Source: a candidate division WOR-3 bacterium (lineage in GTDB: Bacteria; Hydrothermota; Tepidihabitantia; SM23-42). From it: a DNA stretch of 37,726 bases. This document shows positions 29,625 to 35,615 of this stretch, piece after piece. The notes beneath the pieces are model-generated. The model searched no databases. It worked only from the letters and a program-made list of their open reading frames with translations, and was not told the origin of the DNA. The stretch's first letter is position 1; every line of letters starts with the position of its first letter. The stretch spans positions 1-37,726 of the forward strand of contig JAOUFJ010000024.1 in assembly GCA_029858255.1 (NCBI GenBank), in the 5' to 3' direction. A program made the translations under genes and the position numbers.

Positions 29625-29704
29625 GGTCAGGCAATTATAACTCACAACATCCCCAGTAGATATAAACATAAACATTATAAACACTATAAGCATAAGGAGG
29701 TAAT

Positions 29705-30733
29705 ATGCGAAATATATCGCACAGAGTATTGACGACTTTAATGGCCTTCGCCATGCTTGGCGGGCTATATGCAGCCCAGCGCGTCGTCATGATGGAAGAA
29801 GCCTACTGGAGTGGTTGACCAACGTGCCCTTATGCCAGCAGTCTGCTGGACACAATAGCAATGTTGGATTATCCTGACCAGACCGCGCTTGTCGAGTATC
29901 ACTCGGCTACTGGAGATTTTGGATTTTTACAGAAAGCGCGCGACCGCGTATACAATTATTACATTTTTTACGGGTATCCATCCCTTTTCGCCGATGGAGT
30001 AGATCTCTGGCCGATAAGCACATGGAGGCCCTGGCTCACGAGTCGCATGGCACAGCCCTCGCCGGTTACGCTGAATATTACAGGTGGCTATGATCCGGTC
30101 ACGAACAACGGCACGGTAACCGCATCATTCCAGAACGATTCGGCAAGCGCCATAACCGCACGTGTCTACTTTGTGATAACCGAGGACAGCCTCTACCACC
30201 TCGATCCCAATGGACACGGATGGCACAACAAACTGGCGCGAGACTTTCTGCCGGATGAAATCGGCGAAGTGGTGACGATCGATCCCGGGCAGACAGTCGA
30301 CGTGAACCGGCCATTCATGATCGATGCCGCCTGGGATGAGACCCGCTGTAACATAGTGACCTGGATCCAGGTAGATGCACCCTCGCGCGAGGGACTTCAA
30401 GCCGGAAAGATCAAAATAATGGACCTCGTCGGGATCGAAGAGATCGTACTTGAAAAACTGGATAAATCCGTTGTTACCCTAGTCAACAACCCATGTTCTG
30501 CAGATAACATCCGGTTCCTCATCGAACTACCCCAGGGTGCAGCATACGAGTTCGAGATATTCGATGTTCTGGGGCGAAACGTGAAGAGCCTCACCGGTAT
30601 CACTTCAAGTAACCGTGAAATACTACACTTAGACCTGAATGCAGCCAACCAGAACCAGGTTAGCGCCGGCGTCTATCTGTATCGCTTTGTTAGCCAATCG
30701 GAAATAGCAACGGGTAAGATTATCGTAAAGTAA
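29705..30733 (+). CDS. Secreted Omp28/thioredoxin-like protein with in-frame TGA (candidate selenoprotein)
   Basis: One frame runs from ATG 29705 (AAGGAGG site upstream) to the stop at 30733, broken only by TGA at 29816-29818: 342 residues if TGA is read as residue 38. A signal peptide (ending LGGLYAAQ) is followed by VVMMEEAYWSG, then TGA, then PTCPYASSLLD. Omp28-like proteins have EE-x5-W-C-x2-C-P here, so TGA falls on the first Cys and Cys41 is the second. VEYH, FYGYPSLFADGV and a beta-sandwich (VYFVITEDSLYH...HNKLARDFLPDEIGE) fit the family, and the end (AGVYLYRF...GKIIVK) is a FlgD-like tail. Selenocysteine insertion is inferred. The alternatives are a recent nonsense mutation or a sequencing error, in which case translation could restart only weakly at 29861. 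Confidence 0.7.
29816..29853 (+). promoter_or_regulatory. Bacterial SECIS-like hairpin after the in-frame TGA
   Basis: Sixteen nt after TGA a perfect stem CCAGCA/TGCTGG (29835-29840 and 29844-29849) closes a loop GTC. GTG/CAC may add a lower stem. Bacterial SECIS elements need a short stem with a G near the start of the loop, about 16-37 nt after UGA; here the loop starts 22 nt after it. The core GCA-GUC-UGC is close to that of E. coli fdhF (GCA-GGUC-UGC, from memory). Confidence 0.62.
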
Positions 30734-30743
30734 TACCGAAATA

Positions 30744-30873
30744 TGGGGTCAGGTCTTGACTATTGACAACTGTCACATTTTCACAATACCGGAGTCGATT
30801 TTCGAGACCATCACTGCTGCTACACGCAAGCTAGACATATAGCCATTTTGTCAATAGTCAAGACCTGACCCCA
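30744..30873. mobile_element. MITE-like palindromic-ended element, copy 1
   Basis: This 130-bp element has perfect 26-bp terminal inverted repeats beginning TGGGGTCAGGTCTTGAC and ending GTCAAGACCTGACCCCA. It has no open frame and no clear target duplication. It is related to the copies at 33063 and 35485 but inserted in the opposite orientation, as judged by the internal TCGAAAATC/GAAAATG half. It may be a non-autonomous element; no transposase is in the window. Confidence 0.85.
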
Positions 30874-30940: not shown

Positions 30941-31525
30941 ATGAAACATGTAGCGCTATTAGTACTCATCACGATCTTCTCGATCTCGCCACTGCTTGCA
31001 CAAACGACAGATGAAGCACCGGAGAGAACACCGGATGCCGAAGAACTGAGAAGTACAAGCAGAATTCCCGAAGCCGCAAAAGAAGCAAGGGAAGCGGGCA
31101 CTGAAGAAGACGAAATACAGAATGTAGTAAAAGGTGTACAGGAAAAGAAATTATCTCCAGAGGAAGGCGTGAATACCATAAGAATCATGGAAGAGAACTC
31201 GGCTGGAGGAGCATCAAACAGGGGAATCTCCGATTTCGTCGTCGAACAGAAAGCAAAAGGCGTCCACGGTGAGGAATTAGGTCAGACAGTTAGAACCGAA
31301 TTACAGGCCCGGCACCGGGTTAGGGTTGAGGAAGACGAAGGAAAGACAGAACGTAAAGAAGAGCGTGAAGGCAAGGAAGCCGAGGTAGAAAAAGAAGGAA
31401 CTCAAAAAGTCAAGTCCGAAGCCAAAGAAGGCCAGCAAGGAGACCAAAGCCAGGAGCAGAAAGGGATGATGAAGAAACAGGACGAAGAACAGCCCACCTC
31501 AAAAGGGAAAGGCAAGGGAAAATAG
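30941..31525 (+). CDS. Exported highly charged protein, unknown function
   Basis: This 194-residue protein has a signal peptide (MKHVALLVLITIFSISPLLAQ). A helical middle (about 45-125: PEAAKEAREAG, ISDFVVEQKAKGVHGEELG) could form two short repeats of about 40 residues. The tail (about 125-194) is very rich in Lys, Glu and Gln and ends SKGKGKGK. I do not recognise a family. A GGAGG site lies 6 nt before ATG. The following small lipoprotein gene, 34 nt downstream, probably shares the transcript. Confidence 0.75.
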   Translation: MKHVALLVLITIFSISPLLAQTTDEAPERTPDAEELRSTSRIPEAAKEAREAGTEEDEIQNVVKGVQEKKLSPEEGVNTIRIMEENSAGGASNRGISDFVVEQKAKGVHGEELGQTVRTELQARHRVRVEEDEGKTERKEEREGKEAEVEKEGTQKVKSEAKEGQQGDQSQEQKGMMKKQDEEQPTSKGKGKGK

Positions 31526-33062: not shown

Positions 33063-33193
33063 TGGGGTCAGGTCTTGACTATTGACAAATCAATCAACTT
33101 GACCAACATCCAAGTAAAAGCAGTGATGGCTTCGAAAATCAACCCCGGTATTGCGAAAATGCGGCAATTGTCAATAGTCAAGACCTGACCCCA
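33063..33193. mobile_element. MITE-like palindromic-ended element, copy 2
   Basis: This 131-bp element has the same 26-bp inverted ends as copy 1; the internal right half (TTCGAAAATCAACCCCGGT...GCGAAAATG) is nearly the same as in copy 3. It lies 8 bp upstream of the marR -35 box and 9 bp before the promoter of the next gene, so it separates two divergent promoters. No coding capacity. Confidence 0.85.
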
Positions 33194-35484: not shown

Positions 35485-35615
35485 TGGGGTCAGGTCTTGA
35501 CTATTGACAAAATGGTGTACAAACCCAGCGCATAGCTAATAGCAGTGTTGGTTTCGAAAATCAACCCCGATATTGCGAAAATGTGGTAATTGTCAATAGT
35601 CAAGACCTGACCCCA
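35485..35615. mobile_element. MITE-like palindromic-ended element, copy 3
   Basis: This 131-bp element has the same 26-bp inverted ends as copies 1 and 2 and the same orientation as copy 2. It begins 8 bp after the VOC stop and ends 28 bp before the methyltransferase stop, so it separates two convergent genes. Confidence 0.85.

Follow-up and report, generated by a model that had tools for sequence, protein, structure and literature searches.

Does the single TGA that interrupts an otherwise open frame in the genome of a candidate division WOR-3 bacterium end a gene, or is it read as selenocysteine (Sec)? The window, by which we mean the whole stretch of DNA analysed (37,726 nt), carries the frame 29705-30733 on its forward strand, and the sole interruption between the ATG and the TAA of this frame is the TGA at 29816-29818, codon 38. 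The start codon is preceded by the ribosome site aaggaggtaatATG, and the full product would consist of a signal peptide, followed by RVVMMEEAYWSG-U-PTCP, an Omp28 body and a type IX secretion (T9SS) type A sorting domain (Table 1). The Pfam model for Omp28 (PF11551) matches residues 81-222 with 40.4 bits (gathering score 34.9). The TGA sits in a thioredoxin-type U-P-T-C motif, in which the partner (resolving) cysteine is Cys41. The first-pass annotation of this DNA had proposed a candidate selenoprotein, with a signal peptide, a ribosome site and an Omp28 body in one frame broken by a single TGA that takes the place of the redox cysteine and leaves Cys41; it had also suggested a search for selA, selB, selC and selD and an alignment of homologues at the TGA. 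The broken frame is confirmed, and the comparisons reported below bear out the selenoprotein and the replaced cysteine.

Table 1. Features of the predicted selenoprotein gene; positions are those of the window.
Feature	Position	Strand	Remarks
Predicted selenoprotein gene	29705..30733	+	342 codons/residues, Sec at codon 38
Ribosome binding site AAGGAGGT of the gene	29695..29702	+	read in sequence
Signal-peptide-like N-terminus, residues 1-23	29705..29773	+	hydrophobic stretch ending AA; helix 2-22 in model
Thioredoxin-like domain, ~residues 24-117	29774..30055	+	AlphaFold model; thioredoxin matches in profile and fold searches
In-frame TGA, Sec38 of U-P-T-C	29816..29818	+	TGA in 54/54 distinct clade members; Cys in 21 outside homologues
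Putative SECIS hairpin CCAGC-AGTCT-GCTGG, inside coding sequence	29835..29849	+	fits published bacterial SECIS model
Omp28-type beta-sandwich, ~residues 120-241	30062..30427	+	Pfam Omp28 81-222; 2r2c_A Z 12.0
T9SS type A sorting domain, residues 262-342	30488..30730	+	TIGR04183; folds of mirolase (8qb1) and PorU (6za2) C-terminal domains

The source genome (2.72 Mb in 82 contigs, 96.6% complete) is able to decode Sec, since selA, selB, selC and selD are all present. On a single contig, C2, lie tRNA-Sec (C2:200492-200581, 75 bits; called by ARAGORN as SeC with the anticodon TCA), selA (472 bits), selB (351.5 bits) and selD (310 bits), the last of which contains an in-frame TGA of its own at codon 18, so that every step from the making of selenophosphate and Sec-tRNA to decoding is covered. 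Within the window TGA terminates 9 of the 27 larger ORFs listed, including those of an amidohydrolase and a GNAT protein, which indicates that the usual genetic code is in force, as the first-pass annotation had held. An Rfam scan of the window returned one tRNA and nothing else.

The surroundings of selD deserve a brief description. On the same strand and 97 nt upstream of it lies a second TGA-containing Omp28 protein of 604 residues (L019:1291-4236, on C2), and the two genes probably share an operon; six of the eight genomes examined, the source genome among them, retain this pair, with a spacing of ~100 nt in five of the six. The interval between selD and selA (L019:5512-11001 and L020:73-3200) contains frames whose translations resemble a corrinoid protein, UroD-like methyltransferases, and 2-hydroxyacyl-CoA dehydratase-like proteins along with their ATPases. 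A third TGA-containing protein of the Omp28 type, ~800 residues long, is found on contig C7 (L021:43-2427), with the motif UGTC and a SECIS of the same type.

Homologues of the predicted selenoprotein occur in 123 of 150 related genomes, and nearly all strong full-length ones contain one in-frame TGA. Named contigs assign them to candidate division WOR-3 / Candidatus Stahlbacteria. Codon 38 is TGA in all 54 distinct homologues of this clade and Cys in none of them, whereas homologues outside it (n=21) have Cys at the corresponding position; Cys41 is invariant. Across the collected distinct sites codon 38 is TGA in 56 of 59, the other three being two Cys homologues and one misaligned row, and neither TGC nor TGT was met at this codon in any of the close relatives compared, every one of which has TGA. 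In a tree of 79 domains the 54 Sec sequences group together (SH-aLRT 98) to the exclusion of every Cys member; the Cys members and two further Sec genes, namely the long form next to selD and a gene of another family, fall outside. Because these two Sec genes stand among Cys members, the best tree requires three changes of the Sec/Cys label.

The sequence after the TGA is under purifying selection: dN/dS is ~0.03-0.17 where it could be computed (orthologues at 67-88% identity), and it is low around the motif too for the closest orthologues, at a high synonymous-site divergence to the nearest ones. Gene order is likewise kept in the closest relatives (methyltransferase, WG-repeat protein, small secreted protein, LysE). 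A TGA codon shared by 54 homologous genes, low dN/dS despite synonymous divergence and a kept gene order together show that the TGA is not there by chance. The gene that follows the selenoprotein gene in close relatives as well (30941-31525, + strand) encodes a small secreted protein of 194 residues, highly charged and of low complexity, for which no Pfam match was obtained. Between the two, and starting 11 nt past the selenoprotein stop, is the first copy of a short element whose inverted ends of 23 bp match perfectly (GGGGTCAGGTCTTGACTATTGAC); it is present three times (30745-30872, 33064-33192 and 35486-35614). Such ends are expected 0 times by chance, their exact arms number 26 in the genome, mostly paired 102-108 nt apart, and the whole resembles a small mobile element of the non-autonomous kind.

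Sequence comparison indicates that the TGA is followed by a conserved and covarying SECIS hairpin, with shared ancestry as a caveat to the covariation. The candidate hairpin spans 17-31 nt after the TGA, and in the 54 TGA genes the form CCAG(Y)-loop-(R)CTGG begins 17 nt past this codon, its five stem pairs being preserved in 50-54 of the 54 sequences. The apical loop has G at its second position and T or G right after it, in 53/54 each. According to the bacterial SECIS model, G is found in the first two apical-loop positions, at 16-37 nt from the UGA (PMC13188914); the hairpin of the window agrees with these rules in its loop G and in its UGA-to-loop spacing of 21 nt. As an unbiased test, Watson-Crick covariation was scored for each of the 1,128 pairings of third codon positions in the neighbourhood of the TGA; the top two ranks went to the two stem pairs made up of such positions, with z 5.9 and 5.6, and the pair after them reached 3.9. 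Among the 54 genes the pairing is C-G in 20 and T-A in 29, with five exceptions, four of them T-G wobbles. In phylogenetically independent pairs the covariation goes the expected way in five and the opposite way in 0-1, numbers too small to be significant (median p 0.06).

Ser45 is encoded by AGY in 54/54 genes, and just downstream TCN is the commoner choice for Ser (61/95). Wherever the alignment is clear, Cys homologues have Ala, Asn or Asp in place of Ser45 and never Ser, and the hairpin motif is absent from them; the fixed Ser-Leu is thus explained by the RNA and not by the protein. The folding energy of the single window hairpin is no better than that of shuffled sequences (z -1.07); the support for the SECIS is comparative. 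In the long form linked to selD the hairpin is of another kind, and its apical loop reads AGGT.

If the TGA were a true stop, brought about by mutation or sequencing error, the locus would be a pseudogene, or would give a short product and a reinitiated ORF (29861-30733), and the mechanically called ORF does begin at the ATG at 29861. A reinitiated product would, however, be without signal peptide and thioredoxin motif, and a stop does not accord with a TGA found at codon 38 in distinct genes from many assemblies, with the constraint past the TGA and around the motif, or with a conserved SECIS in a genome equipped for Sec. Pseudogene and sequencing error are ruled out by the conserved TGA and reading frame, and we give the stop reading as a whole next to no credence. 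Alternatively, UGA might be read as Trp, Cys or Gly, through either a changed code or a suppressor tRNA. In favour of this we found nothing beyond the open frame itself, and against it stand the ORFs of the window that end in TGA, the tRNA-Sec with selA, selB and selD, the SECIS-type hairpin at the right distance, and homologues with Cys, not Trp or Gly, at the site. A changed code is rejected, TGA still being a normal stop in the window, and recoding to a residue other than Sec is extremely improbable. The gene 29705-30733 is almost certainly a selenoprotein gene in which Sec is actually inserted.

What kind of protein this gene encodes can be judged from its predicted fold. The AlphaFold model (pLDDT 89.5, pTM 0.68) presents a thioredoxin domain with a strand at 28-34, a loop with Sec38, a helix at 41-55 and Pro92 before a strand; by analogy, this conserved proline would occupy the thioredoxin cis-Pro position. 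The beta-sandwich and, last, the tail follow this domain in the model. The best match among solved structures is HBP35 of Porphyromonas gingivalis (5y1a), with Z 24.4 over 287 residues and an overall rmsd of 12.6, presumably because the domains are turned relative to each other. Atu2684 (AGR_C_4864, 2axo) comes next and shares the thioredoxin and beta domains (Z 19.2 over 201 residues, rmsd 3.6), but this match, at 13% identity, covers residues 22-250 without the T9SS tail. P. gingivalis Omp28 (2r2c) follows with Z 12.0. The top rows of a Foldseek search (transglutaminases, RbmA) represent a common beta-sandwich at TM-scores of 0.2-0.3 and were set aside, and HBP35 is absent from the matches of a sequence profile search with the selenoprotein. 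HBP35 is secreted and combines an N-terminal thioredoxin domain with a C-terminal T9SS domain, but it has Cys48-x-x-Cys51 where the WOR-3 protein has Sec. It reduces insulin via these two cysteines and binds hemin through the part after its thioredoxin domain (PMC2907840), and it reaches the surface via the Por (type IX) system (PMC3120885). By analogy with HBP35, the WOR-3 protein is likely to have thiol-disulfide oxidoreductase activity.

The C-terminal tail, which the first-pass annotation had called FlgD-like, has to be corrected to a T9SS type A sorting domain. TIGR04183 matches it with 36.4 bits (cut-off 23) and is matched in 32 of 33 relatives, while PF18962 stays under its own cut-off (21.2 vs 27); in the fold search the tail resembles the C-terminal domains of T9SS proteins. 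The same genome encodes the T9SS core protein SprA (381.9 bits) and the sortase PorU (450.2 bits), both over cut-off, and dozens of similar tails. Taken together with the HBP35 fold match and the experiments on HBP35, the presence of SprA and PorU makes an exported, HBP35-like thioredoxin with Sec at its active site the best reading.

Two other views of the protein have to be considered. It could be kept in the periplasm or on the inner face of the outer membrane, with the C-terminal domain being a FlgD-like structural repeat and not a T9SS signal: related long forms match the FlgD model weakly, and T9SS export of WOR-3 proteins is a prediction from sequence and fold. The TIGR04183 matches here and in the relatives, the fold matches to T9SS C-terminal domains, and the co-occurrence of SprA, PorU and dozens of similar tails argue against this view and render it unlikely; we regard T9SS export of the selenoprotein to the surface as very likely. 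A role outside thiol-disulfide exchange, for instance as a peroxidase or as a binder of metal, selenium or heme, is rather unlikely. Sec often confers peroxidase activity and HBP35 is also a hemin-binding protein, but UxxC in a thioredoxin-like domain is the classic site of thiol oxidoreductases, and the invariance of Cys41 speaks for such a site too. That the protein is Sec-decoded, exported and thioredoxin-like is highly probable, and as an exported thioredoxin-like protein it probably acts at the cell surface.

In the mechanism that we propose, SelB with Sec-tRNA(Sec) would recode the UGA at codon 38, guided by the downstream hairpin inside the gene. The signal peptide would then take the product across the inner membrane and the type IX system would take it across the outer membrane, with the sortase PorU removing the C-terminal tail. 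The mature protein would carry its thioredoxin domain, with the Sec-x-x-Cys site, on a beta-sandwich of the Omp28 type; Sec38 may attack a disulfide or some other oxidised group, and Cys41 may resolve the product.

Selenoproteins of a related kind have been recorded before. Zhang and Gladyshev (2008) reported 74 'GOS_C' selenoproteins with a thioredoxin-like fold and UxxC from ocean data (PMC2398784), and a 2026 review files GOS_C under NF045500 and names its UxxC (PMC13188914); the NCBI name of NF045500 is Omp28-related selenoprotein. The likeness lies in Sec within the UxxC of a thioredoxin-like fold (UPTC here) and in the Omp28-related body. In contrast, GOS_C is known from marine metagenomes without functional evidence, and our protein scores 38.8 bits against the NF045500 cut-off of 200, so it is not filed in that family, yet is plainly a relative. 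Two other TGA-bearing relatives in the source genome score 75.5 and 50.1 bits, and 17 genomes of another phylum contained no NF045500 member over the cut-off. The Omp28 family (PF11551 and NF033782, with P. gingivalis Omp28) shares the beta domain, and the Pfam cut-off is exceeded here, but the Cys homologues compared have Cys at the site, NF033782 is named for lipoproteins, and the WOR-3 protein combines Sec with a T9SS tail. A text search of the literature, with most subscription papers outside its coverage, gave no paper on a selenoprotein as type IX cargo and none on selenocysteine in WOR-3. The WOR-3 branch of this known sea-water selenoprotein group, with its secretion tag, appears to be undescribed. 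The first-pass annotation had considered a secreted Sec-x-x-Cys oxidoreductase unusual, which stands in part: Omp28-type selenoproteins are already catalogued, and the novelty lies in the T9SS tail and in a WOR-3 branch that is Sec-only and has many paralogues.

Standard annotation would retain only a 290-residue remainder of this protein and so lose it together with dozens of similar relatives. The many paralogues of this Sec-only branch and its T9SS tail suggest that selenium is spent on extracellular redox chemistry in an uncultured phylum. It seems reasonably likely that WOR-3 bacteria possess an export set of T9SS selenoproteins, a Sec-only branch of Omp28/HBP35-like thioredoxins that are extracellular and occur as several paralogues in many of the searched genomes. 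If so, no class of T9SS-secreted selenoproteins would have been described before this one, and the Sec trait of the WOR-3 phylum would owe part of its retention to Sec chemistry at the cell surface.
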